64,000 nt of DNA, taken from contig CM069875.1 in NCBI GenBank assembly GCA_036172665.1, positions 18,383,806 to 18,447,805 of the forward strand. The letters run 5' to 3'. Made by a program: the position numbers and the translations under genes. Source of the stretch: Prosopocoilus inquinatus. Taxonomy: Eukaryota; Arthropoda; Insecta; Coleoptera; Lucanidae. The stretch's first letter is position 1; every line of letters begins with the position of its first letter. Shown here in pieces: positions 11,091 through 60,128 of this stretch. The notes beneath the pieces are model-generated. The model was not told the DNA's origin. It saw only the letters and a list, made by a program, of their open reading frames with translations, and searched no databases.

Positions 11091-12034
11091 ATATTTTTCT
11101 TTAGGTTGATTTATTTCATTTTGTACAAAAAATACCGATCGATAAGAAGAAGTGGAGCAAACTTGTTTATTGACGAAAGGATTAGTAAAATGAAACGTAG
11201 TTTGTTAGATACATACTGTATCTTACACCTTTGCGTTTTATAAGATTAAGATTATATGTTTGTATGCTGTGTGACTCACAGAATTGTTTTTCTGAAATTT
11301 TCCTTTCAGAAATAATCATGATTAATTAATTATCAGAAGTCAAAACTAGGTACAATAAATAAATTTTTCTATTTTGCGTTCACAACAAGCTCATTGTGAC
11401 ACCAAAACCGATTTCACAAAGAGGTTCATTGTTTTTGGTTGAATGTTAATCCTGAGAGTGGCACATTGTTCAATCATGAAATGTCAAATGAGATTTTAAA
11501 TTGAAGACATTTAATAGAATTTACAAAATAATTCATTATTTATTGAATGAAATCAACAAACATTTCATAAATAATGTATCCGAATCGACGAAAGATTTTT
11601 CACAAATCTTAAACGATTATAACAATTCTACCTATCAAAACTGTTGTGTATTCACTCGTGATTTAAGTGAATAATTATTTCTTGTTGAATTAAACACACA
11701 TTTAATAAAAATCACTTTAATAAGATAATTATTGATATGACACTGTATGATGAGTTGGAAAATGAATGTATGTGGCTCTTTGGTGAGCTTGAAATGAAAT
11801 GTGTTGTCGCTCTTTGACGAGCTTCAGATGAAATGTGTTGTAATAGATAAATTGTATTGGTTTTAAACACCCTTAAATGTGAGCAATCTTCACAGAAACC
11901 AAGTTTACCAAGCGTAAGCGAAGAGTGCCCACGTTCGATAAATTCAAAGAAGGTCGGGGTGACAAATATTTTGTTGAAAAAAGCTGTGTGGGTCACATTA
12001 ATAATAGCTTAAATAATACTTAATATTAAACAAA
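11091..12034. other. Unassigned AT-rich DNA
   Basis: A 94-codon minus-strand frame at 11712-11996 has no known motif. Nothing else was recognised. Confidence 0.4.
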
Positions 12035-12061
12035 AACTTTGATATTAATTTCTATTTTCTT

Positions 12062-13500
12062 TTAGTTGATCCAAATACTGTGCTAAGACATATGTTGAGT
12101 ATTAAAAGTAAGGCCAAGGGATATGATGGAATTAATGTAGCAATGATAAAACTATGTCTTCCTCCCATCCTCCCTTTCATCACCCGTATTATCAACTCGT
12201 GTTTACATGAGCATACTTTCGCGCAAGCATGGAAGACAACAACTGTTCTACCTCTTCCCAAAATCGAATCACCTTCTGATTACTGCGACTTACGTCCCAT
12301 AAGCATACTACCAACTTTAAGTAAAATTTTAGAGAAAATTATGTTTAAGCAAATTTATAATCACTTCACAGAAACATATAACCTATTACCCGACTGCCAG
12401 GCTGGCTTTAGGAAACACCACAGTTGCACCACAGCTCTTCTACGAATTTCAGACGACATTATGGAAGCCACAGGCCGAAATAAACTTATCCTGTTAATTC
12501 TGTTAGATTATAGCAAAGCATTCGACACCCTTAATCACCAAATATTAGTAGCTCTTCTCCATCACACCGGCTTCAGTAAAGACTCTTTGTCTCTCTTTGA
12601 ATTGTATCTAGCTGAACGGCACCAATATGTTGAGCTAGCACAAGGCAACTCAGAATTGCTGCCTCTAAAAAGGGGAGTTCCCCAGGGTTCTATTTTAAGC
12701 CCGCTGCTCTTTAGCATTTATACTTTACTTCTCTCCCGTAGTTTCAAATACTGCAATGTACAGATGTATGCAGACGACACTCAAATATACAAATCTTTCA
12801 AGTTTGAAGAGGCTAACAATGCTATCAAAAAAATCATTGAAGACCTAAAAAAGAATTCCAACTTTTTCCACCGGTCACTCTCTTATTATTAATCCTAATA
12901 AATCTACTGCAGTTCTTTTCGGTAAGAAAAATGACGTCCATATCTTACAGGATCACTTGCATATTGAACTAAATAACGTAAATATATCTTGTACTGGCCA
13001 AGTGAAGAACCTAGGGCTTTTGATGGATAACACTTTTCGTTTTAGAGATTATATATCTAGGAAAATAGGCAACGCATACGGCAATATTAGTAAATTACTA
13101 TACAATTTCCGATCAGAGCTCAGCCTCAAAACAAAAATATTATTACGCGAAAGTATGATTTTATCTTTATTTAATTTTGGTGCACCACTCTACGGCCCTT
13201 GTTTAGATTCGTATGATTCAACTCGTATCCAAAAGGCTCAAAATTCCTATATAAAGGTCATCTACGACCTGCGGAGACGTGATAGAGTGTCCCAAAAATA
13301 TTATTAATATCAGAAATAAAAATCTTATCACCCCTTCGTCTCACAAAACAAGCTTTTTCGAACGCTCTTATAAATAATCTGAACACTGATATTAAAAATA
13401 TGAATCTCCCTCTTTCAGACGTGCCGTCCGCAGAAGTCTTTTTGATCAGCAACAGTCAACAATGTGAAATTTATCATCGCCATTACGTCAGTGTCTGACA
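12062..13500 (+). pseudogene. LINE reverse transcriptase, frameshifted
   Basis: The main open stretch runs to 12892. It holds the standard palm motifs: LRPISILPTLSKILEK, QAGFRKHHSCTTALL, LLDYSKAFDTLNH (first catalytic Asp), GVPQGSILSPLLF and MYADDTQIY, with YADD encoded at 12767-12778. The polymerase core therefore looks intact. Near 12868 the frame changes, and 12893-13307 continues in another frame with the expected thumb and C-terminal sequence (NPNKSTAVLFGKK, later IQKAQNSYIKVIYDLRRRDR). Another break near 13300 leads into remnants such as SFRRAVRRSLFDQQ. No endonuclease domain is present because the copy is 5' truncated. It is related in style to Jockey/CR1 group LINEs; the exact clade is not settled by eye. 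Confidence 0.85.
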
Positions 13501-43489: not shown

Positions 43490-44254
43490 GCAGGGTGGCC
43501 CAACGTTGCGTATTTCTTCTGTGAGGCCCATAGGAAAAAATCGATAAAGAATTTTATACTAGATAATACGCGGCATATTGTATAATTATTTTGAAGTATA
43601 CAGAGTGATCAGAAAAATAGTGGTTCGTGGAAACTAATTTTTTTTTAATGGAACACCCTATATATTTTTAGATATTTCGATGCGCCGCAATCAGCAGATT
43701 ACAATGGTATAAAGATATATAGATTTCATTGAATAACTTTCGTAAAATAATTTTCTTTTCTTGAAGAATTTTGCAAAAATTCAGTCAGTTTGAATATGAA
43801 TTTCCGATTACTGAGGTAATACAGACGAACGAAAATCTAACACGATATTTTTAGGACTTTGGCCTTTATAAAAATGTGAACAAAATTAAGATATCTTTTT
43901 GCATTATACCGAGCGATCAATACTTACGAAACATTCGGTATCTAATTTTTTTTTAATGGAACGGCTTACTTTTTATTTCAGAAATGGATAGCACTTAAAT
44001 GTAGCTTTCTGCTGATATAAGGTTATATACCTTTATTTTTAATAATTTCGTCACTAGAAATTTTCTTTTTACAAGTATTTCAATGGTCTGTTTTTAAATT
44101 ATTTTTGGTAAAATAAATCCTATCGCGGGGGTATTCAAATTAGAAATCTTTGACAGTAGAATCAAATGATCGAAAAATGACTTCGAATGATTGAATTTAG
44201 GTAGGAAAGTAGCAATACTGGGTGTATAGTTTAAAACGCCGACCATTGAAATAC
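43490..44254. mobile_element. Left part of an interrupted foldback element
   Basis: It starts cagggtggcccaacg and pairs with the right part ending cgttgggccaccctg at 55807. The retroelement at 44255-55205 was inserted close to its centre, beside the words tttcaatggtc/gaccattgaaa. Arms match through many blocks, such as acagagtgatcag, catattcaaactgac and ggtatataacc. The insertion is younger than the foldback element. Confidence 0.85.
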
Positions 44255-44630
44255 TGTCACGACCCTGGTAAGATCAAGGGTCGCAAAGGGGGGTTGCTCA
44301 GAGGGAGCAGTCGCTAGCTAGTAGCGGAGGTACCTTAATGGAATGTTGGAAAGTTAAAAATAAAAATAACCATACCTTTCAGAAGCGGTTTATTTGCAAA
44401 AACTCAAAGAATCCCTTCAGCAAGCAGAGCCCGGTAACCGCCAGGTGACGTCCACGGCACCGCACACACACACCCGTCTGTCTGTCTATCTATCTCCCCG
44501 CGACGCGTTTTCCTAGCGGTTTTATTATGCCTGCCTGCTGAAGTCAGCAAATCATTTATCCAAATCTATAACTAATTAATTAAAACAGTTATAACAATAA
44601 TTGATACCTACCTTAGCATCATTTGTGGCA
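44255..44630 (-). repeat. 3' LTR
   Basis: 376 bp, in element sense TGCCACAAA to GTCGTGACA. A polyadenylation signal AATAAA lies at 44389-44394. A perfect 7-bp inverted repeat (CGACCCT, 44260-44266, with AGGGTCG, 44277-44283) forms a hairpin at the U5 end. Confidence 0.97.
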
Positions 44631-44643
44631 TTTCCCCCCCTCT
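44631..44643 (-). promoter_or_regulatory. Polypurine tract
   Basis: In element sense a run of G followed by AAA abuts the 3' LTR directly, as needed for plus-strand priming. Confidence 0.85.
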
Positions 44644-44925
44644 GGAGAAAAAAACGTCTCCTGACCGTTTCTTAATGGATACAATTACCATATCGTTTTT
44701 ATTAAAAAGGTAACGATTGAATAGCCACAAATGATACTAGGTTTACATATACGAATCAATCTAAAAGTAAAAAAGACATATGAAAAACTGTAAACTATCT
44801 ACATAAAACACGTATGTAAGTGAAAAATAAACGCAATACAAATTAATTTTACTCAAAACCGCACTCACAGTTTTAGTTTTAGAGTTCGGACGGATACTTT
44901 AGCAGTTTGTGGAAAGGGAATCCCT

Positions 44926-46178: not shown

Positions 46179-47600
46179 TTAATGTAGACTCGACTCTGAT
46201 GTAGATGCTTTAAGATTAATCTTACAACTTCTCCCGTCTGGCAGGACAAAGATTCCCTCATCGTACTGTTTTGAACCAACAATTCCTTGCGAATCCCTTC
46301 TTGTCACTTTATTTGCACAACATGTTCTTACTTTTAAATAACACCAAATTATAATAACTATACCAATTACAGTTAATACCGTGCCCGTGGTAATGAATCC
46401 TATGTGTGTGTTTTTTCTGAAATTAAAATCTAAATCTAGATCGTCAATATCTTTTAACACCTCATCTAAATTTCTACTGTTTTCTTTTAGCCTACTTCCT
46501 TTAACTAAGTCTTCCAACTTATAAAAATTTATTTTGTCAAGGTCAGCAATCAATGGATTTATTAAATTTCTTTCTGTTGTGTTGAAATGAAAGAATTTCC
46601 AGCGTGATGAATATTGAATACTTTTTGTAAACTTAACTGAATGAACTGGATTTAAAATTATGTTTTTGGAAAACCCTTTGCACTCTTCAGATAGTGTAAT
46701 TCTTCCTGTACCCCATAATTCTATATACTCAATTTTTTGGTTATTTTTGCAATTAACAGTCATTGTTTCTCTGTTTGGTGCTACGAAAATCCACGAGTTA
46801 TAAACGCCTGACTCAATAAATTTTGTTCTATTCAAATAAATGATATGTCTTTCACATACATTGGGCAATTCTTTTACTGGCCGAAATAACTGAACTTCAC
46901 ATGATTGTTGTGAGTCAGATAAAATTGGTTTTTCATAATTTAAAATGTAGTTTCTGTTTTCTGAAATAAAACAATTCTGAAATTCACTTTCATCTAAATG
47001 AAAATATTTATTGTGCAGTTCATTAATTGCTAAATATCGAAATTCATTGTTAATAAATATAAAGTTGTTGTCATGTAGTCTGATTGGAACTGATACAGTT
47101 TTAAATAAAAGGTAAGGATTTACATGAACTAATGGAATTTTTAAAGCACAATTCAATTTTGATTGTAGAATAAAAACGTTTACCTTTAAAATTCGCCACA
47201 AAACTGTATTATCCTCATGATCTAAAATATTAAATGGTAATTTTAGCCCTGGTGGAATATGGTTAATAATTGTATTTAGTTGTTCCATGATAGTCGTGGG
47301 TGTAATTAATAAGGGGTGCAAAATTCCTTGCTTCGCAGCAACTAATACATTTACAAGATTCGTTGTTTCTAACTGATATTGATCAATTAATAGAGTTAGC
47401 AAAGCTACATGATCCTTCAGTCGTCTATCTATTTTATAAATAAAATCGATGTCGGTTAAAGTATTGTTTACCAAAAATTTTAATTTTTGAAAATTTTCGA
47501 GAATAATTTTTTCATTGTGCTGAAAATGACCAATAGTATTATTTAAAGAATCCAAAGTTGATTTAACGACAGAAGTTTGTTTGGCTAAAATTTTACTCAT
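46179..47600 (-). CDS. env: Env, C-terminal open frame (transmembrane subunit)
   Basis: The frame has 473 codons. Residues about 10-60 are heptad-like helix after the presumed fusion peptide. Several N-x-S/T sites and cysteines (210, 234, 249, 284, 307) mark an ectodomain. Residues 400-423 are a single hydrophobic membrane anchor, followed by a cytoplasmic tail of about 50 residues with a CC pair. The layout is that of insect errantivirus and baculovirus F-type fusion proteins. The frame overlaps the preceding env frame by ATGA (47597-47600), and the two frames differ by -1 right after an A12 run (47604-47615 on the plus strand as T). Either translation or transcription slips there, or this copy is mutated. 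Confidence 0.85.
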   Translation of the reverse strand: MSKILAKQTSVVKSTLDSLNNTIGHFQHNEKIILENFQKLKFLVNNTLTDIDFIYKIDRRLKDHVALLTLLIDQYQLETTNLVNVLVAAKQGILHPLLITPTTIMEQLNTIINHIPPGLKLPFNILDHEDNTVLWRILKVNVFILQSKLNCALKIPLVHVNPYLLFKTVSVPIRLHDNNFIFINNEFRYLAINELHNKYFHLDESEFQNCFISENRNYILNYEKPILSDSQQSCEVQLFRPVKELPNVCERHIIYLNRTKFIESGVYNSWIFVAPNRETMTVNCKNNQKIEYIELWGTGRITLSEECKGFSKNIILNPVHSVKFTKSIQYSSRWKFFHFNTTERNLINPLIADLDKINFYKLEDLVKGSRLKENSRNLDEVLKDIDDLDLDFNFRKNTHIGFITTGTVLTVIGIVIIIWCYLKVRTCCANKVTRRDSQGIVGSKQYDEGIFVLPDGRSCKINLKASTSESSLH

Positions 47601-48079
47601 TTGTTTTTTTTTTTTGTCAATGCTCCTATTGCTTTCTCGAAATGTTCTTCATCTTCTGTAGTTAAGGTTCCAAACAAAACTTTTGAAGCTTTACCTACAA
47701 TATCAAAATACCCTCTTTTTACTCGAACGTGGCCAATGAAACTTGGTATTACATTTCTTTCCCAAGTGACCCGATTCATAGTTTGATTTATTAAATTAAT
47801 GTAATTGCCACATAGTTCATTTTTCTCAAGCAAAGGCTCATTACAGATTTCTGTTGTTTCCCTAAACATATTTTTCAGTTGAACAAATTTATCATCGTAT
47901 GACTCTAAATCTATGTAAGTAATAATATTCCAAAAAGTATTAGTCAGATATAAATTACCTACATCTTCAAATAAAATTCCTGATGTCTTTTCTAACGATT
48001 CGACTTTATATGGAATTTTTACGTCTTCTTCATATCCAAATGTGAAAAATATCAAGTATAAGAAATAATATAACTCCAT
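47597..48079 (-). CDS. env: Env, N-terminal open frame (surface part and cleavage site)
   Basis: The frame has 160 codons. Residues 1-16 are hydrophobic and act as a likely signal peptide. RVKR at residues 119-122 followed by GYFDIVGKASKVLFG is a furin-like site and the start of a fusion-peptide-like segment. The frame stops at residue 160 in a lysine run encoded by A12, where the next frame takes over. The surface part before the cleavage site is short, as in errantiviruses. A splice-acceptor-like TTGTTACAG lies about 25 bases before the ATG (48102-48110), fitting the spliced env mRNA known for gypsy-type elements. Confidence 0.85.
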   Translation of the reverse strand: MELYYFLYLIFFTFGYEEDVKIPYKVESLEKTSGILFEDVGNLYLTNTFWNIITYIDLESYDDKFVQLKNMFRETTEICNEPLLEKNELCGNYINLINQTMNRVTWERNVIPSFIGHVRVKRGYFDIVGKASKVLFGTLTTEDEEHFEKAIGALTKKKNK

Positions 48080-48101
48080 TTCAATTTTCTTGCTTATGAC
48101 C

Positions 48102-48110
48102 CTGTAACAA
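48102..48110 (-). promoter_or_regulatory. Candidate splice acceptor for env mRNA
   Basis: In element sense TTGTTACAG precedes the env ATG (48079) by some 22 bases, after a pyrimidine-rich stretch upstream. Gypsy-type env is translated from a spliced RNA. The donor was not identified. Confidence 0.4.
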
Positions 48111-48235
48111 TTCTTTATTTATATATACAGTCTACACTTCAATTGGAGGAAAAAAAATCCAACGTATGATAAAAATACTTAATTATATCCCTTTAAAATT
48201 AAACTTATTATTTATTTGTTTATTTAAGTAAAAAC

Positions 48236-49264
48236 TTATGGCGTCCATTTTTCGTAATAAGGAGCTAAACGCGAAATGTGAACTGTCTCTCGTTTGGCCT
48301 TTTTGCCTTTTCCCGATTCTATAACGTAATTTAAGTTATTTCGTTTTTCAACTATCGTATATGGGCCAAAATATTTTGGTTGTAACTTGTCGCTCTTTCC
48401 TACTTGTCTGATGAACATTTTTAATTTTACCTTATCTCCTACTTCAAAACTCGCATTACGATGTTTTTCGTCATATCGTGTTTTATCAATTTTTTGTTGT
48501 TTAATAATATTATTACGAGCTTCTTCTCTTAACTTTATAATTGCTTTTTGATTACGCAATGCAAAATCAGTTGTCATTAATTGATTTATTTGAGCATCAG
48601 ACGGTAAAACAGGTTCTCTGCCATAAACTAAAGAGAAAGGGCTACATTTTATAGTTTCCTGACGAGTGGTATTATACGCAAATACGCAATGAGGAAGGAA
48701 GACATCCCAATCCTTTTGAGACGTGGAACAATATTTACTCAACATGTCTGCCAACGTTTTGTTTAGCCGTTCGGTGAGTCCGTTGGTAGAGGGTTTGTAA
48801 GCTGTAGTAAAACTACTCCCTGTGCCTAGCAACCTTAATAACTCTGTGACGAGACGTGACATGAAGACAGCTCCCCTGTCGCTGAGTAACTTTTTTGGTG
48901 AACCATGTCGACAAATGATCTGCTGCATGATAAATTTTGCAACAGCTTCTGCTTTACCATTAGGAAGGGCTTTGGCCTCCGCCCACCTAGTCGCATAATC
49001 TGTCGCCACAACGATAAATGTACAACCAGAATTGCTTTTTCGAAAAGGGCCTAGAAGATCTATACCAACCATTTCGAAAGGATTTCCTACTTCGATCGGA
49101 TTTAATAATCCTGCAGGTTTTTGATTTAACCCTTTACGCATTTGGCAATCAGGACATCCCTTAATATATTTTTCTACATCGCGCTTCATACCTTCCCAAA
49201 AGTATTTTTTTCTAATTTTGTCTAATGTTCGAGAAATTCCTAAATGTCCGCTTAATAGGTTCAT
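48236..49264 (-). CDS. pol: Pol, integrase part (separate frame)
   Basis: The frame has 342 codons. The HHCC zinc-binding domain is incomplete in this frame: H7 and the pair C37/C40 are here, the first His is in the previous frame. The catalytic core has D69 (GIDLLGPF), D129 (LLSDRGAVF) and E165 (NGLTERLNKT), giving exactly 35 residues between D129 and E165. The C-terminal GPF/Y-type module is at YFGPYTIVEKR. The core therefore looks functional. The frame overlaps the previous pol frame by 53 nt and is shifted by +1. Programmed shifts are not expected inside integrase, so a single-base indel in this copy is the simplest reading. Confidence 0.93.
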   Translation of the reverse strand: MNLLSGHLGISRTLDKIRKKYFWEGMKRDVEKYIKGCPDCQMRKGLNQKPAGLLNPIEVGNPFEMVGIDLLGPFRKSNSGCTFIVVATDYATRWAEAKALPNGKAEAVAKFIMQQIICRHGSPKKLLSDRGAVFMSRLVTELLRLLGTGSSFTTAYKPSTNGLTERLNKTLADMLSKYCSTSQKDWDVFLPHCVFAYNTTRQETIKCSPFSLVYGREPVLPSDAQINQLMTTDFALRNQKAIIKLREEARNNIIKQQKIDKTRYDEKHRNASFEVGDKVKLKMFIRQVGKSDKLQPKYFGPYTIVEKRNNLNYVIESGKGKKAKRETVHISRLAPYYEKWTP

Positions 49265-52200
49265 CGTGATTATTATATAAAATTTCTGCGCGCATATCTG
49301 CTGGTATTACTAATAATTTCGTTTCTGTGTTTGGTTGAATTTTATATAAAATGCCATTTATAATTTCAAAATTTTTAGCTGCCCTTTGTAAAGCCGGTCC
49401 ACCGAATTGTTCATCGTTAATAGCTGCAATAATCTCTTGTATTTGTGCATCCTTAGATTGTAAGTTGATTAATTCCTTTGTTGAAATTAAAAAAGATGGA
49501 ACCTCTAAAGCTTTAGATTGATCGAATGTAGTTGCCTCCGTACAGGGATATCTAGAAAGAGCATCTGCATCCTTATTTGCGGATCCTTTTTTATGAAAAA
49601 TTTTATACGAATATTCCCTCAATTTGAGTGCCCATCGAACTAACCTGCTACCGGGAGTTTTTAATGATTGAAGCCAGCAAAGAGAATGGTGATCAGTTAC
49701 TATTATGAAATTTTTTAAGCCCCAAAGATACGATCTGAAGTACTCAACTGCCCAAACTGCAGCCAAACATTCTAATTCACTTATTGTATAATTTTTCTCA
49801 TACGGAGTTAGAGTGCGAGAAATATAAGACAAAGGATGAAGTTTACCAGATATATGATCTCTTTGAAGTAGAACAGCTCCAATACCCACACCACTAGCAT
49901 CTACGTGTAATTCTGTATCCGCCAATGGATTGAAATGATGTAAAAGAGGTGGACTTGCAAGCTTAGATTTCAGTATATTAAATGCAGTTTCTTGAGATCT
50001 TTCCCAGATGAAATTCGACTTGGATCCGATAATATTATAAAGAGGTTTAGCTATAATTGAGAAACCAGGAATGAATCTTCTGTAGTAATTGCATAAACCT
50101 AAGAAACTCTGCACATCTTTAACCTTTTTTGGAGTTGGAAAAGAAATTACCGCCTCAACTTTTCGATTGTCTGGTTGAATACCATTACCAGAGATGTTAA
50201 ATCCTAGAATATGTATGTTTTTATAAGCGTACTTACATTTAACAGGTTTTAGAGTTAGACCTGCATTTCTGATGCATTGGAAAACGTTATTTAAGCGATC
50301 TAAATGTTCATCAAAAGTTTTACTTACTACTATTATATCATCTAAATAAATAGCGACCTCTTTCCATTTTAGATCTTTAAAAACTGTATCCGTTAATCTC
50401 TGGAAAGTTCCCGGAGCATTACAGAGACCGAAACTAAGTCTATTAAATTCAAATAATCCGTCATTCGTTATGAACGCTGATTTATGCTTATCCTCTTCTT
50501 TAATCGCACACTGCCAATAACCGCTATTTAAATCTAAAGTTGTAAAATAACTATTGCCGCCGAGAAAATTTAAAATGTCATCGATTAGGGGCAGCGGATA
50601 AGCGAATTTGGTTGTAATTGCATTTAGTTTTCTGTAGTCGACACAGAAACGGTAGGTGTTGTCAGGTTTTTTAACTAAGACCACTGGGCTTGCAAACTGA
50701 CTATCTGAAGGACGAATTATACCTAACTCCAACATTTCTTGAATTTGATTTGAAATGATATTTCTTTCTTTAAGGCTCACTCTATAAGGACGCGATTTTA
50801 CCGGTGCATTATTTCCAATGTCAATTGTGTGTTCGGTTAAATGTGTCAGTCCTAACATTGATGAATCCCATGCCATAATGTCGTTATTATTTCGAAGTAA
50901 TTTACTTAACCTTTGTTTTTCTTTATCGCCCAATTCAGCACTAATATTAAAGTGTTGTTCACTTTGTACATTACAAACAAAGTTTTTGTTAAAATCAAAA
51001 TTTTCTTCATTGTAGGCTGTGTCATTAACAAAGTCATCAGTTTTGTATAAATAACCCAATACTGTTCCTTTACGTAATGTGGAAGCAAAGTTTCCATAAT
51101 TAAAAATATTTATTTGATGGTCACCTAGAACTTCAAAAGGATCGTTTAATTCTAATTTATTTTTATTCAGAAACTCCATTCTAGGAAAGAAAGTGTAAAA
51201 TGTTACTTTCTCATTGTTATTTAAATTATCTATTGTAACGTGACATTTTTTATTACATTTTCGTGCAATAACTACGTCTTCACATAGTTTAATTTTAATT
51301 ATTTTATTGTTCGAAATTTCATTTACAATTTCTTGATCAGGTAATGTATTCCATAGATCAACGCTACTATTTTGTATGGTATTGGATGCTTCTGTTTCCG
51401 TTTCCTTGTTTAAATGATATATTTTGATATTAATATTGGAATTTTTGAAGACATACAAGATCATATTTTTTATTATATCCCATTTACATCCATCTAACCC
51501 ACAGGCAATTTTGGGTATAGCTAATTTATTGATCTCGTTTATTGTCATGTGTTTTTTCAAATTGCATAAGCTATTAAAAATTGCTTCATAAGTAGGTTTT
51601 TCATTTGACTTGTTTTTTGTGACTAAATAATATATAAAACGCTTATTGATTTTGAGGAATGCTAAACCTCCCACTTTAGGATTTTGTTTTTTAAGTTGCG
51701 TAACATTGTTAAATTTTTCTTTAAAAACCCTTGCGATTCCCGAGGACATTTGAAAATCTCGCGCCACACAATGAGCTAAACTGTATTGTTTCGATATTTT
51801 AAATAAATCTCCGCATTCTTCCTTAATATTTGAATACGTTAACGTTGATTGAGAATGCTTAACAAAATCTGAAAAACATTTTTCGTAACTAATGGAAAAA
51901 TCTTCATTTTCTTTGAAAATATGTGGGGTATCCTGACCTATGCTAATACTAGAACGCTGCTGACCGTCGTTCGCTATCGTGTTACTTCCAAAGTCAACGT
52001 CCGTGTCGTTCTTAAACATTTTTATGCGGTCTTTTTTAAAAGTTACAGTGTTATTAATGAAATTTATGTTGGCCTGATTGTCCTTCAAAAAGGGATACCC
52101 TAAAATAATATGTGGTGCTAATTTATCAACAACTAAAGCTTTTATAGGATAGCTTTCTTCGTTTATGTTAATTACGATTTCAGTTATACCTATAGGATAA

Positions 52201-52478
52201 ACGTGATAATTATTTATTGTATTTAGGATTAATTCCTCTTTTAAAGGAGAAATTTTATTGGCAAAACAAGGTCTTACTAAATTGTATGATGAACCAGTAT
52301 CTAATATCGCTGTTATATATTTATTGTTTACTTTTCCTTTAATTTTAAGTATATTCGTATCTTTTAAAAATACAGGCGCTACGGTGGCTGGCGTTGTATT
52401 ATAAAATGTCCAATTTTTACTGTGACCTTTATTAACATTTTTATTATTATTACTTAGGCCCTCGCCGTTTGATTCCAA
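49212..52478 (-). CDS. pol: Pol: protease, macro domain, reverse transcriptase, RNase H
   Basis: The frame is open from the gag overlap and 52478 is a TTG, not a real start; translation enters by -1 frameshift. Numbering from TTG: protease DTGSS at 60-64 with ILGYPF near 125; macro domain 213-356; linker 357-555; reverse transcriptase about 560-765 with LDLNSGYWQ and YLDD at 711-714; RNase H about 850-970 with D860 (VDAS), E901/E903 (SELE) and D929 (TDHH); then the start of the integrase zinc finger. The polymerase and RNase H catalytic residues are intact. The frame ends at 49212 after a +1 shift that separates it from the integrase. An extra domain between protease and polymerase is unusual for Ty3/Gypsy Pol. 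Confidence 0.96.
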   Translation of the reverse strand: MESNGEGLSNNNKNVNKGHSKNWTFYNTTPATVAPVFLKDTNILKIKGKVNNKYITAILDTGSSYNLVRPCFANKISPLKEELILNTINNYHVYPIGITEIVININEESYPIKALVVDKLAPHIILGYPFLKDNQANINFINNTVTFKKDRIKMFKNDTDVDFGSNTIANDGQQRSSISIGQDTPHIFKENEDFSISYEKCFSDFVKHSQSTLTYSNIKEECGDLFKISKQYSLAHCVARDFQMSSGIARVFKEKFNNVTQLKKQNPKVGGLAFLKINKRFIYYLVTKNKSNEKPTYEAIFNSLCNLKKHMTINEINKLAIPKIACGLDGCKWDIIKNMILYVFKNSNINIKIYHLNKETETEASNTIQNSSVDLWNTLPDQEIVNEISNNKIIKIKLCEDVVIARKCNKKCHVTIDNLNNNEKVTFYTFFPRMEFLNKNKLELNDPFEVLGDHQINIFNYGNFASTLRKGTVLGYLYKTDDFVNDTAYNEENFDFNKNFVCNVQSEQHFNISAELGDKEKQRLSKLLRNNNDIMAWDSSMLGLTHLTEHTIDIGNNAPVKSRPYRVSLKERNIISNQIQEMLELGIIRPSDSQFASPVVLVKKPDNTYRFCVDYRKLNAITTKFAYPLPLIDDILNFLGGNSYFTTLDLNSGYWQCAIKEEDKHKSAFITNDGLFEFNRLSFGLCNAPGTFQRLTDTVFKDLKWKEVAIYLDDIIVVSKTFDEHLDRLNNVFQCIRNAGLTLKPVKCKYAYKNIHILGFNISGNGIQPDNRKVEAVISFPTPKKVKDVQSFLGLCNYYRRFIPGFSIIAKPLYNIIGSKSNFIWERSQETAFNILKSKLASPPLLHHFNPLADTELHVDASGVGIGAVLLQRDHISGKLHPLSYISRTLTPYEKNYTISELECLAAVWAVEYFRSYLWGLKNFIIVTDHHSLCWLQSLKTPGSRLVRWALKLREYSYKIFHKKGSANKDADALSRYPCTEATTFDQSKALEVPSFLISTKELINLQSKDAQIQEIIAAINDEQFGGPALQRAAKNFEIINGILYKIQPNTETKLLVIPADMRAEILYNNHDEPIKRTFRNFSNIRQN
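51411..51842 (-). other. TARG1/OARD1-like macro domain embedded in Pol
   Basis: Residues 213-356 of Pol. The order GDLF (223-226), SLAHCVARDFQMSSGIA (233-249), FKEKF, IYYLVTK (282-288), KPTYEAIFNSL, IPKIACGLDGCKW (321-333) and IKIYHL is the ALC1-like class of macro domains typified by TARG1/OARD1, which removes ADP-ribose from glutamate or aspartate side chains. TARG1 uses Lys84 and Asp125. The equivalents here are K288 and D329, with the same spacing of 41. The catalytic pair is therefore intact. Function in the element is inference: protection of its proteins or particles from host ADP-ribosylation is possible. Confidence 0.9.
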
Positions 52479-52480
52479 CA

Positions 52481-52526
52481 GGACAGAATTTAGGGCCTCG
52501 TGAAATTCTGTCCGTTCCGGTTTCCC
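52481..52526 (-). promoter_or_regulatory. -1 ribosomal frameshift signal at gag-pol junction
   Basis: In element sense the heptamer G GGA AAC (52526-52520) is in the gag frame. A 6-nt spacer follows (52519-52514), then a perfect 11-bp stem (52513-52503 with 52491-52481) with an 11-nt loop. The gag stop codon (52492-52490) lies at the base of the 3' arm. A -1 slip on the heptamer puts the ribosome in the pol frame, which has no stop from there on. This matches the standard retroviral architecture. Confidence 0.88.
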
Positions 52527-54268
52527 TGCGCTTTATTATATTGTTGATTTTTGTTAAAATATTCAGAATTTTTATTACATATCAATTCATTGTAACGTGA
52601 CGGATAATTAGCTCTATGAAAATTGTTTTGGGTTTGATAGCAAATATTAGCAGTATGGCCACTTCGATGACATAATTGACAAATAGGTCTGCCGTTCAAT
52701 GTTCTACTGCGATTTTGTAACGTGAAAGAATTATTTGGAATTCTATTTATGTTATTAGTAACTGGAGCTGGTTTTTGGTTAACTCCCCCACGGTGACTCT
52801 GATAATTTTGCCTATATTGATATAAGTTGTTATAGTTCCGTTTCGTGAAATTCTGATTGTAGTCAGGATAAAATTTCTGATTTTGATTAAACTTGATCTT
52901 AGTAAGCTCTAATTTAATTTGCTTCAATTGCTCTGCAATGTCTGTTACAGTATTCTGTAAAACTTGTGAATTTTGTAGAAATTGTGAATTTTGTACCGAA
53001 TGTGAGTTCTGTGACGTAGAACCATTCAGTTTACTTATGGTTTTCGGCAGTATCTCTGTTTTGAAAGAGTGACCTTCTCGTTCTGTTTCAGCTACATATT
53101 CAATGAAATTTTCAATTTCCCCGAGCGATGAAGGACGCGTTAAATTTATCATATATCTGTGATATGGTAATAACCCTGCAATAACTCGTTTAATAATGTC
53201 CGTTTCGGCCATATTTGGGTTAACCTCGTAACATAAGTCTAAAATATCGTAGTAATATGTTATTAATTGCTCATCTGTTTGTTGTCTGCGAGAAATTAAT
53301 CTAGCTTCAATATCTGTATCGTAACTCGGACCGATAAATTTGTTTTTAAATTCTTTTGTTGTCAATGTCCAGTCGGCATTTGGATGTCTTTTAACAAATT
53401 CCCGGAACCACACTGCAGCCGAATTTCGTAAAGAATTACCAAAATAACATAATTGAAGTGTATCATCCCACGCGTTCGACTGTGCAGCTAATTTATAATT
53501 TTTTAAGAAAAAAATTGCGTCATCGGAGGACGGATCAAAAATAGGTGGTGGGAAATATTTCGGTTTTGTAGGAGTTCGATTTTGAAGTAACATTGATAAT
53601 GTGTTATTGACTGTAGCAGGATTACTGTTTGAGAAATTATGAGATTCTTGTGATTCTAAAATAAAAGTGTCCGCTATGTGAGCATCCCTAACTGGTTTAG
53701 AACTTTTTCTAGAATTAGCTTGAGGAAATCTCACAGATTCATTAATTGTTTCTGTTGGCAACTGGAATCTTGTTGATTTTGGAATGGCACCGGTTTTTTT
53801 GATATTAGAATTTGGGGTAATTTCTGAGCCAACCACCTCGTCATAAGAGTTATCATTTGTCATACGAACTGACTCGAACATTTTTGATGAATTATTATCT
53901 CGGTCAAAAGCAATTTCGGGGGGTAGTACACTGTTAATAGAGAAACTTGAGGGCGGCGGCGGCGGGGGTATTTCTGAATTATCGGAAAGGCATTTAAATT
54001 TATTTATTTCTGGAGGAGTACTTTCCGGAAGAACTGTAATAGTGGTCGGTTCATTAATTGTAGTAACTATCGATGAAATTGGAGGAACCACGGGTTCTAA
54101 ATATTCACTTGCGGCAGGAACGGGTGTTTGACTAGGAGAACGCGGAATTAGCGAGCTCCTCGCGCTAGGGAAAAATACATCCTTTTCCAAATTTATCTCT
54201 ATATCGTATTTATTTTTGTCGTCTTCTTTGCTTTGTGAACGAGTCTTAGGTTTTTGTCGTTTATCCAT
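52490..54268 (-). CDS. gag: Gag
   Basis: The frame has 592 codons from an ATG. The first 230 residues are low-complexity and rich in Ser, Pro and Asn, with six consecutive Pro at 101-106. Residues about 235-395 form a Retrotrans_gag-type capsid region (LQLCYFGNSLRNSAAVWF, later YYYDILDLCYEVNP). Residues 410-510 are Gln/Asn-rich with a helical segment. A zinc knuckle C-x2-C-x4-H-x4-C lies at C530, C533, H538 and C543. The protein builds the particle and binds RNA. It ends at the stop inside the frameshift stem-loop. Forward-strand frames here are shadows. Confidence 0.93.
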   Translation of the reverse strand: MDKRQKPKTRSQSKEDDKNKYDIEINLEKDVFFPSARSSLIPRSPSQTPVPAASEYLEPVVPPISSIVTTINEPTTITVLPESTPPEINKFKCLSDNSEIPPPPPPSSFSINSVLPPEIAFDRDNNSSKMFESVRMTNDNSYDEVVGSEITPNSNIKKTGAIPKSTRFQLPTETINESVRFPQANSRKSSKPVRDAHIADTFILESQESHNFSNSNPATVNNTLSMLLQNRTPTKPKYFPPPIFDPSSDDAIFFLKNYKLAAQSNAWDDTLQLCYFGNSLRNSAAVWFREFVKRHPNADWTLTTKEFKNKFIGPSYDTDIEARLISRRQQTDEQLITYYYDILDLCYEVNPNMAETDIIKRVIAGLLPYHRYMINLTRPSSLGEIENFIEYVAETEREGHSFKTEILPKTISKLNGSTSQNSHSVQNSQFLQNSQVLQNTVTDIAEQLKQIKLELTKIKFNQNQKFYPDYNQNFTKRNYNNLYQYRQNYQSHRGGVNQKPAPVTNNINRIPNNSFTLQNRSRTLNGRPICQLCHRSGHTANICYQTQNNFHRANYPSRYNELICNKNSEYFNKNQQYNKAQGNRNGQNFTRP

Positions 54269-54814
54269 ATGTCTTCAAGTCAATGTCCGTTATTTTATGA
54301 AGAAGGAAAAAAAAGAAATTAAACACGTGTCATTTGTAACGCAATTACGGAATCTTATTACGTAAAGTAAAAATGCAAATAATGTAACTTCACGCATTTC
54401 CTGTTACGTTCGCGGTTTCAGAATTCGACACCATCCGCTTGCCTCCGTCATCAGAAAAAAAATATTTCATTAACGTAAATAATTAAAATATTACAATAAA
54501 TTATTTTATTTTCATTCCCGCACATATTATTATTATTATTATTAAATTTTGTTTAAAACAAGTCATGATTATAAATAATCGAAAACATATATATATAAAT
54601 CGGAGAAATACTATTAACATTGTATTAAAATTACTTGAAAATAGTTACCGTTATTTGAAACAAAATAAGTAACAGAATAATATCATCCTAAATTTTTATA
54701 TATAAGTACACGAAAAAGTGGTGCTTAAACGAATTCAAAAAAACTTTTCAAACAAATTCGTTAAATTACATTTTTGCATTACAAAAAAAAAATAAAATAA
54801 AATAGATCGCTTAA
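54269..54814 (-). other. 5' untranslated leader of the retroelement
   Basis: About 550 bp of AT-rich sequence between the primer site and gag. No frame of note. It presumably holds packaging signals and the env splice donor, neither of which I can point to. Confidence 0.6.
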
Positions 54815-54827
54815 GGCGCCTCCACCA
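54815..54827 (-). promoter_or_regulatory. Putative primer-binding site
   Basis: In element sense TGGTGGAGGCGCC begins two bases after the LTR end. The initial TGG fits the CCA end of a tRNA. The tRNA was not identified. Confidence 0.6.
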
Positions 54828-54829
54828 CT

Positions 54830-55205
54830 TGTCACGACCCTGGTAAGATCAAGGGTCGCAAAGGGGGGTTGCTCAGAGGGAGCAGTCGCTAGCTAGTAGC
54901 GGAGGTACCTTAATGGAATGTTGGAAAGTTAAAAATAAAAATAACCATACCTTTCAGAAGCGGTTTATTTGCAAAAACTCAAAGAATCCCTTCAGCAAGC
55001 AGAGCCCGGTAACCGCCAGGTGACGTCCACGGCACCGCACACACACACCCGTCTGTCTGTCTATCTATCTCCCCGCGACGCGTTTTCCTAGCGGTTTTAT
55101 TATGCCTGCCTGCTGAAGTCAGCAAATCATTTATCCAAATCTATAACTAATTAATTAAAACAGTTATAACAATAATTGATACCTACCTTAGCATCATTTG
55201 TGGCA
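54830..55205 (-). repeat. 5' LTR
   Basis: 376 bp, read as identical to the 3' LTR throughout. It carries the same AATAAA (54964-54969) and the 7-bp hairpin (54835-54841 with 54852-54858) next to the primer site. Confidence 0.97.
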
Positions 55206-55807
55206 ATACTTATAAAAAGAAAATTTCTAGTGACGAAATTATTAAAAATAAAGGTATATAACCTTATATCAGCTGAAAGCTACATTTAAGTGCTATCCAT
55301 TTCTGAAATAAAAAGTAAGCCGTTCCATTTAAAAAAAATGAGATACCGAATGTTTCGTAAGTATTGATTGCTCGGTATAATGCAAAAAGATATCTTAATT
55401 TTGTTCACATTTTTATAAAGGCCAAAGTCCTAAAAATATCGTGTTAGATTTTCATTCGTCTGTATTACCTCAGTAATCGGAAATTCATATTCAAACTGAC
55501 TGAATTTTTGCAAAATTCTTCAAGGAAAAAAAATTATTTTACGAAAGTTATTCAATGAAATCAATATATCTTTATACCGTTGTAATCAGCTCACTGTAAC
55601 GCATTAAAATATCTAAAAATATACAGGGTGTTCTATTAAAAAAAAATAAGTTTCCACGAACCACAATTTTCTGATCACTCTGTATAGTTCAAAATAATTT
55701 TATAATATGTCGCGTATTGTCTAGTATAAAATTCTTTGTAGACTGTTTTCCTAATTTTTTTCCCGTAAGCCTCACAGAAGAAATACGCATCGTTGGGCCA
55801 CCCTGCA
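55206..55807. mobile_element. Right part of the interrupted foldback element
   Basis: Begins with the ATAC target duplicate and pairs inverted with 43490-44254, ending gccaccctgca at 55807. Confidence 0.85.
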
Positions 55808-58816: not shown

Positions 58817-59132
58817 TAGTTTACTGACAAGTTAGGTATGATCGAAACAAATTTAAGTACCTACATGTAAAAAGTGAGAACTTCAAAACTTGCAATTTTT
58901 GCACTTAAGAAAGTTTGATTTCTCTTGTCTTTTCATAATAATCGTGATGGAGTATTATAGTACCCCATTACGAAATATTTTTACACTCCTTACTCTTCGA
59001 AGAAGTGCAAAATTTGCAAATTTTGAATCTGTTACTTTCCACCATAGAACACTCAAGAGGAGAAATGAAACGTCTATGTTAAATTTTGGCACCACGAATT
59101 TGCGCGCCGCTGGATGATCGATACCGGAAATT

Positions 59133-60128
59133 TTGTTTAGAAATATTTTTCGCTTTAATAAGGACACCGCCCTTGCAATTGTAAATATGATAAATGATCA
59201 TATGAGACATCAACGAAAAATCACCGGAATACACTCCCACGTCAAAATTTTAGCAACATTACATTTCTACGCCACAGGGAGTTGCCAATCAAGTGCTAGT
59301 CAAGGGTACCATTTCGCCCTGAGTCAAGCTAGCATGAGTCGTTGTATAAACGAAGTGACAAATGTTATAAATCGACAGTTGGTTGCTAATTGGATTGTTT
59401 TTCCGAAGGCAGAAAATGAAAGAAATAAAATCAAAGAAGCATTTTACGAAATGTTTCATTTTCCTAGATGTTTAGGTGCAATCGACTGTACGCGTATTGC
59501 AATTATTTCGCCACCTGAAGATTATCCTGCTTTGTCATACTGCTGTCGAAAGGGATTCTTCAGCATTAACTCCCAAATTATCGTAGACAGTAATTTAAAA
59601 ATATTAAACATGAACGCCAAATTTCCTGGTTCTACTCATGACTCAGCTGTCTGGCAATCATCGAACATAAAGGCTATTATGGAGAACTTATATCTTCGAG
59701 GACATCAGTCACTTCCAATAGAAGATTCTGGATATTCTCTACAACCCTTTCTAATAACACCTTTTGAAAATCCTGAAGAAAATACACCTGAAACTCGTTA
59801 TTACTACAACTTTATTAGAGCTAGAAATGTTATTGAAAGATTAAATGGTATCTTGAAATACAGAGTTCGCTGCTTACTAAAACACCGGGTTTTGAATTAC
59901 AGATCTGTAACTGCAGTAAAAATTATTATAGTTGTGATGTTATTTATAAATATTGCCAAATATTACAAAGACGATTTACGTGAAAACGAAGTAATCGAAG
60001 TGGAGAACGAAGAAAACGATAATAATGAAATCATTCTAAGAGATGGAAATTGGCAGAGGAAAGGTCATGAAGTGCGAATCCAAATAGTTGATAATTTTTT
60101 TATTTCAAAAAGTATTGTATTTTTTTAA
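59133..60128 (+). CDS. HARBI1: HARBI1-like PIF/Harbinger transposase
   Basis: The frame has 331 codons. HARBI1-type nucleases cut and join DNA for PIF/Harbinger elements with the help of a Myb-like partner. The DDE_Tnp_4 signature is present: D118 in LGAIDCTRI, D170 in FPGSTHDSAVW, the EDSGYSLQPFLITPF block at 197-211, and E235 in ARNVIERLNGILKYR. All three catalytic residues are kept. Upstream, the same frame continues back past a TGA at 59115-59117 (SIPEILF lies just after it), so the true N-terminus is either in another exon or cut off by a nonsense mutation. The tail beyond residue 285 is acidic. Terminal inverted repeats of the element were not identified. It may be a dying transposon or a domesticated copy. 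Confidence 0.85.
   Translation: MFRNIFRFNKDTALAIVNMINDHMRHQRKITGIHSHVKILATLHFYATGSCQSSASQGYHFALSQASMSRCINEVTNVINRQLVANWIVFPKAENERNKIKEAFYEMFHFPRCLGAIDCTRIAIISPPEDYPALSYCCRKGFFSINSQIIVDSNLKILNMNAKFPGSTHDSAVWQSSNIKAIMENLYLRGHQSLPIEDSGYSLQPFLITPFENPEENTPETRYYYNFIRARNVIERLNGILKYRVRCLLKHRVLNYRSVTAVKIIIVVMLFINIAKYYKDDLRENEVIEVENEENDNNEIILRDGNWQRKGHEVRIQIVDNFFISKSIVFF

Follow-up and report, generated by a model that had tools for sequence, protein, structure and literature searches.

Through analysis of the window, i.e. the whole stretch of 64,000 nucleotides of Prosopocoilus inquinatus DNA that was studied, an LTR-bounded Ty3/Gypsy element has been identified on the minus strand, running from position 55205 to 44255 (Table 1). 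The affiliation with Ty3/Gypsy is indicated by (i) the two LTRs, which start with TG and end with CA; (ii) a target duplication; (iii) a gag frame; and (iv) the order protease (PR), reverse transcriptase (RT), RNase H and integrase, with the integrase located in a second frame. Behind pol lies an env of the Baculo_F type, recognised on its first piece (PF12259, 8.9e-9), by which the element is judged, at the sequence level, to be an errantivirus-like, env-bearing Gypsy. The identical 376-nt LTRs and the ATAC duplication agree with the initial annotation, which had taken the window copy for a recent insertion. In this copy a frame break in Pol separates RNase H from the integrase, and env is likewise divided between two frames; a longer open Pol frame of 1,430 aa is present at another genomic copy (L008). 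Elsewhere in the window, on the plus strand, open frames resembling a LINE reverse transcriptase (12017-13307) and an open frame resembling a Harbinger-type transposase (59118-60128) have been noticed by eye.

Table 1. Features of the Ty3/Gypsy element, in window positions.
Feature	Position	Strand	Remarks
5' LTR	54830..55205	-	376 nt
3' LTR	44255..44630	-	376 nt, no difference from 5' LTR
Target-site duplication ATAC	44251..44254 and 55206-55209	.	4 bp, flanks both LTRs
Candidate primer binding site	54815..54829	-	by eye; TGG starts two bases past the LTR end
Candidate polypurine tract	44631..44645	-	by eye
gag	52490..54274	-	Retrotrans_gag, Ty3_capsid
Pol open frame, first part (protease, macro domain, linker, RT, RNase H)	49212..52532	-	
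Aspartic protease region	51999..52388	-	
TARG1/OARD1-type macro domain in Pol	51375..51854	-	160 residues; TARG1-alignable core about 51411-51842
K288 codon of macro domain	51615-51617	-	
D329 codon of macro domain	51492-51494	-	
Linker, macro domain to RT	50799..51374	-	
Reverse transcriptase core	50169..50798	-	
RNase H	49524..50078	-	
Pol second part: integrase (H2C2 zinc finger, core, C-terminal domain)	48236..49306	-	other frame
env, N-terminal part	47597..48118	-	Baculo_F
env, rest	46179..47648	-	other frame; by place and by eye

Identity of the macro domain

The initial annotation had proposed that a TARG1/OARD1-type macro domain is placed in frame between the protease and the RT of this Pol, with a catalytic Lys-Asp pair at the spacing of TARG1. 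Both statements have been borne out. Comparison with PDB sequences by phmmer returned five distinct entries of human TARG1/OARD1 (C6orf130), with E-values from 2e-33 to 3e-33, and the best alignment spans 138 residues, covering positions 9-146 of the 146-residue TARG1 chain. K288 and D329 of the window Pol correspond to K84 and D125 of TARG1, at a spacing of 41 residues; the TARG1 numbering was verified on a mammalian OARD1 (P0116). In TARG1, D125 is the catalytic partner.

An AlphaFold2 model of the window domain, based on an alignment of 42 rows, reached a mean pLDDT of 92.7 and a pTM of 0.87. Its top match in Foldseek is TARG1 (4j5s; TM 0.89, 139 columns, 44% identity to the human protein in the structural alignment), on which the predicted macro fold superposes at an rmsd of 0.6 A. 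A chance resemblance to TARG1 is excluded by the E-value of 2e-33 and by the Foldseek match. The Pfam comparison which the initial annotation had suggested turned out differently: the Macro family PF01661 scores 16.3 bits on the window Pol, below its curated cut-off of 22. Routine annotation would therefore miss the domain; its assignment to TARG1 here is based on sequence and fold, and it is not counted as a PF01661 member.

Distribution among elements and the RT tree

The genome searched comprises 650 Mb in 173 contigs. With the window domain as the query, 152 matches were obtained on scoring 150 of 1,322 candidates; Anastrepha OARD1 (P0042) and the OARD1-like protein P0108 gave 151 matches each, on scoring 150 of 1,299 and of 1,294 candidates, respectively. 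The genome holds at least about 150 macro-domain loci, and their true number is likely several times higher. Sixty loci (L001-L060) were read, 20 as returned and 40 picked to span families, and the counts among them do not stand for frequencies. Pol domains lie beside the macro domain, on the same strand, in all 60. Three positions within Pol have been identified: the PR-RT side (46 loci), behind the integrase (10), and between RNase H and integrase (4). The neighbours found at the 46 PR-RT-side loci are PR and linker (38), linker only (4), PR and RT (2) and PR and RNase H (2). A further PR-side family is represented by L067-L069, and the RT beside L067 (L077) falls with lineage B of the RT tree described below. 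At L070 an apparent integrase tail was seen by eye upstream of the macro domain, and L066 carries a macro domain with no neighbour detected. The domain is carried by long open frames, e.g. of 1,575-1,953 aa, those of lineage B reaching 1,914-1,953 aa.

Since the domain lies beside or within Pol in 60 of 60 loci, and inside long open frames in many of them, an assembly chimera, or an OARD1 gene adjoining an element, is ruled out. The initial annotation had described the domain as captured inside this Pol, in a recent insertion, and had recommended a search of related Gypsy elements for the same insertion. Other lineages were found to carry the domain at two further Pol positions; the sister families examined, with an RT about 75-81% identical to that of the window, carry it too, and a unique recent capture by the window element is ruled out by these families and the other loci.

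The protein search with the Pol domain region revealed six proteins. Three are Pols (P0001, P0004 and P0005); the others, two from Diabrotica and one from Ephemera, possess no Pfam Pol domains. A search from P0004 added the Pols P0007, P0008 and P0009. In all six of these assembly Pols the macro domain is located between RNase H and integrase. No relative turned up in scans of IMG/VR with the macro domain and with the RT. P0001 (about 946-1033) and P0009 (about 914-1042) contain, between the first macro domain and the integrase, a further macro copy that is degenerate. The Diabrotica proteins P0002 (975 aa) and P0003 (969 aa) carry a macro domain and a second macro-like stretch identified by profile. 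Near the N-terminus of P0002 there is a PAM2-like motif, found by eye. In the element next to and upstream of L018 and L020 (L018:1-1125, L020:3-1094), the post-integrase macro domain has a CCCH zinc-finger motif behind it, recognised by eye in translation. The same combination of macro domain and CCCH finger occurs in Brassicogethes aeneus P0055, which is likely a piece of an element and not a host gene.

The RT tree comprises 23 rows, with near-copies removed at 96% and RT matches of fewer than 170 model positions dropped. Clade A, which contains the window element and bears the macro domain between PR and RT, is monophyletic (100/99), and the domain is common to the families examined in it, which have the RT identities given above. 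Its sister is L061 (RT about 62%), which possesses PR, linker, RT, RNase H, integrase and env frames; its linker follows directly after the protease, and the 5.8 kb retrieved revealed no macro domain. The post-integrase families, C, branch next after clade A and L061. Lineage B, also with the domain between PR and RT, is located in the other half of the tree together with L073 and the D families, and the RT tree does not settle the branching order among these three. No macro domain was found in L061/L062 or in L073/L074 (RT about 65%), L062 having the same RT identity as L061, and the macro profile gave no match at E up to 10 on L061, L062, L065 and L073-L076.

In AU tests a single RT clade was rejected for lineages A and B together (p 6e-7), for A plus C with L061 left out (p 0.006), for the D families (p 2e-6), and for all 19 macro-bearing RT rows against L061, L073, L075 and L078 (p 1e-62), L078 being represented by an RT piece alone, irrespective of a macro domain. 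The first of these results rules out one clade for the two PR-RT lineages. The rejections indicate that the macro domain was gained, moved or lost several times. As a minimum, reached by argument and not as a tree count, we assume that A, B, C and D each gained or moved the domain separately, because each is set apart either by its own position or by relatives without the domain. L075 and L076 share the RNase H-integrase spacer of the macro-bearing L035 (the spacer of L076 is 40% identical to it) and give no macro match, the difference being the presence or absence of the domain alone.

Origin and conservation of the domain

For the macro trees, near-copies were removed at 93% and domains of fewer than 120 model positions were dropped (11 of 72 matches). 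In the tree of 130 rows the window domain groups with Diabrotica, Brassicogethes P0055 and P0108 (98/83; the bootstrap had not settled); this group is nested in one that holds fly OARD1s, and the six assembly Pols group elsewhere. In the tree of 60 rows clade A forms one clade (99/91), beside a post-integrase family with P0055. An AU test on 24 element domains and 17 named host sequences did not reject a single clade of all element macro domains (p 0.31). Judging from these sequences, the domain likely descends from an animal OARD1, in agreement with the host-derived enzyme that the initial annotation envisaged; the tree with host OARD1 proteins proposed there to time the capture leaves one element clade unrejected. 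The search for the host OARD1 gene of this genome with P0042 and P0108, where 150 of 1,299 and 150 of 1,294 candidates were scored and a spliced gene could escape among the remainder, yielded nothing above 53% identity, and its top matches were elements.

A single capture from a host OARD1, followed by exchange between elements, has somewhat less than an even chance of being the true history, the alternative being several host captures. Exchange after one capture accords with the unrejected single clade and with the mosaic appearance of the Pols, but wider trees scatter the element macro domains among animal OARD1s. Likewise, two RT-sister post-integrase families (98/95) have macro domains which do not group, that of one (L063) having been assigned to its family from its genome-search row alone. 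The mosaic appearance is seen between L026 and L028, for which dS amounts to 0.24 in RT, 0.46 in PR, 0.70 in RNase H, 1.32 in the linker and 1.35 in the macro domain, as if recombined.

Conservation was analysed on 69 aligned domains: 61 locus domains which passed the length filter (of 72 model matches), the six assembly Pols and two non-element proteins. The filter removes broken copies, so that the counts describe only copies whose domain is open. K84 is present in every one of the 69 and D125 in 68, the exception being L020, in which D125 is replaced. The position of TARG1 S35 is occupied by Ala in 50 of the 69, and that of D20 by a residue other than Asp in 12; substrate choice may therefore differ from that of TARG1. 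Among 24 non-redundant domains, consisting of 18 from the genome (including L066, without a detected neighbour) and six from assembly Pols, the invariant columns number 16 of 144 and include K84 and D125. The catalytic residues are unchanged across domains that are about 40-50% identical.

Macro dN/dS was calculated for 12 pairs (Nei-Gojobori). In two of them macro dS is saturated, and the other ten gave 0.06, 0.14, 0.15, 0.15, 0.20, 0.21, 0.22, 0.27, 0.33 and 0.71. The six diverged pairs, with a finite dS above 1, lie at 0.14-0.22, rough values with dS near saturation and with shared members (L026 in two pairs, L022 in three, L005 in two). The linker in the same pairs is similar, at 0.14-0.29, and macro dN is several times RT dN. 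The three close pairs have 0.27, 0.33 and 0.71, the last resting on 13 non-synonymous against 5 synonymous changes. Of 16 loci of the window family, 13 have full-length gap-free copies, 9 of them distinct and the window copy included. Here 20 non-synonymous changes, 8 synonymous changes and 1 stop correspond to about 0.59, which by eye is not separable from neutral. On these codon comparisons the domain is constrained between element families. The suggestion of the initial annotation that the activity is selected is compatible with this constraint, and the changes within the window family give no clear sign of it.

Proposed role and comparison with known systems

Several features, namely the presence of the domain, its predicted fold, its catalytic residues, the between-family constraint and the three Pol positions in separate RT lineages, point to a working TARG1-type ADP-ribosylhydrolase, built into Pol by several Ty3/Gypsy lineages and protecting the element, which is likely. 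That the domain is an active hydrolase useful to the element appears quite likely. It would be made as part of Gag-Pol and would presumably be carried in the particle, where the Lys-Asp pair could strip ADP-ribose set by host PARP-type enzymes on Pol or Gag, on cDNA or on integration intermediates. Such removal would keep reverse transcription or integration running against a host ADP-ribosylation response. The occurrence at three Pol positions fits an activity that is needed in the particle and is not tied to one site.

Reverse transcription and integration yield single strands, nicks and gaps, and such DNA is sensed by PARP1. According to the account in PMC8501950, TARG1 removes ADP-ribose from Glu/Asp and also from thymidine in DNA, and the K84A variant gives no rescue; ADP-ribose made by PARP1 on single-stranded telomeric DNA is described as removed by TARG1 in PMC11102865. 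The main substrate of the element enzyme might be element or host proteins, which we put at slightly under an even chance, and a nucleic acid or integration intermediate as the main substrate is proposed more tentatively. Several observations stand against the hydrolase reading: the replaced D125 of L020, the changes at S35 and D20, the value of about 0.59 in the window family, the higher ratios of the three close pairs and the saturated dS of two pairs, and L075/L076, whose spacer without a macro match indicates that some lineages do without the domain.

A further-reaching proposal is that of convergent capture, according to which several Ty3/Gypsy lineages independently installed the hydrolase at three Pol places in response to ADP-ribosylation, which would be a main, hitherto unrecognised insect defence against reverse-transcribing elements; the enzyme would undo this modification on cDNA or integration intermediates. 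In this full form the proposal is rather unlikely. Alternatively, the domain may act as an ADP-ribose reader by which the integration complex is steered to damaged or open chromatin that bears ADP-ribose, in the manner of the chromodomain of chromoviruses, with hydrolysis incidental. Two of the three positions do border the integrase (RNase H-macro-integrase and integrase-macro), and one post-integrase family has its CCCH zinc finger behind the macro domain. The macro domains of the window clade and of lineage B are, however, far from the integrase and beside the protease, and binding alone would not clearly require the nearly invariant catalytic Lys and Asp; a reader function is improbable. 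That the domain is a captured host fragment of no importance to the element is very improbable, since the frame breaks of the window copy, the within-family changes that are not clearly constrained and L075/L076 without the domain are outweighed by the dN/dS between diverged families, similar to that of the neighbouring linker, by catalytic residues that stay invariant in such dissimilar domains, and by the occurrence of the domain in separate RT lineages.

That abundant elements with recent activity have a TARG1-type domain built into Pol, constrained between families and placed at different positions, suggests that retroelements are under pressure from ADP-ribosylation. Many natural macro sequences are available for testing substrate and mechanism, and the presence of macro-bearing and macro-lacking families in one genome makes the question testable.

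No report of a macro domain in Ty3/Gypsy Pol was found in the open-access literature searched. The element is regarded as a retroelement with a captured host-type domain, of which subscription papers, preprints or repeat libraries may contain an earlier mention. Chromoviruses likewise have a host-type domain added to Ty3/Gypsy Pol, a chromodomain behind the integrase which guides integration; it is a different domain, a histone reader and not an ADP-ribose enzyme. TARG1/OARD1 itself resembles the window domain in predicted fold, in identity and in the spacing of the Lys-Asp pair; however, it is a free-standing cellular protein, whereas the window version forms part of the polyprotein of a retroelement.

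Endogenous retroviruses of fish that contain macro-domain ORFs (Basta et al. 2009, cited in PMC4977317) are also retroelements encoding a macro-domain protein. As presented in PMC4977317, these are additional ORFs, in contrast to Ty3/Gypsy, where the domain is in frame within Pol and at three positions. The macrodomain of the DarG antitoxin has a similar fold (TM 0.80) and performs lysine-dependent DNA de-ADP-ribosylation, as stated in PMC8501950. It is, however, only 17-18% identical and belongs to a bacterial toxin-antitoxin partnership. Macro domains are counter-defence enzymes of RNA viruses, and those of alphavirus nsP3 and Kadipiro virus VP8 are, like the window domain, carried by a replicating element, although these viruses are not retroelements and the alphavirus domains are only 16-18% identical to that of the window. 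The structure search of viral models (BFVD) revealed macro domains in insect-associated viruses, the best being Kadipiro virus VP8 (A0A8E0KJF2), the model of which is 49% identical to the window domain and so nearer than human TARG1 (44%).
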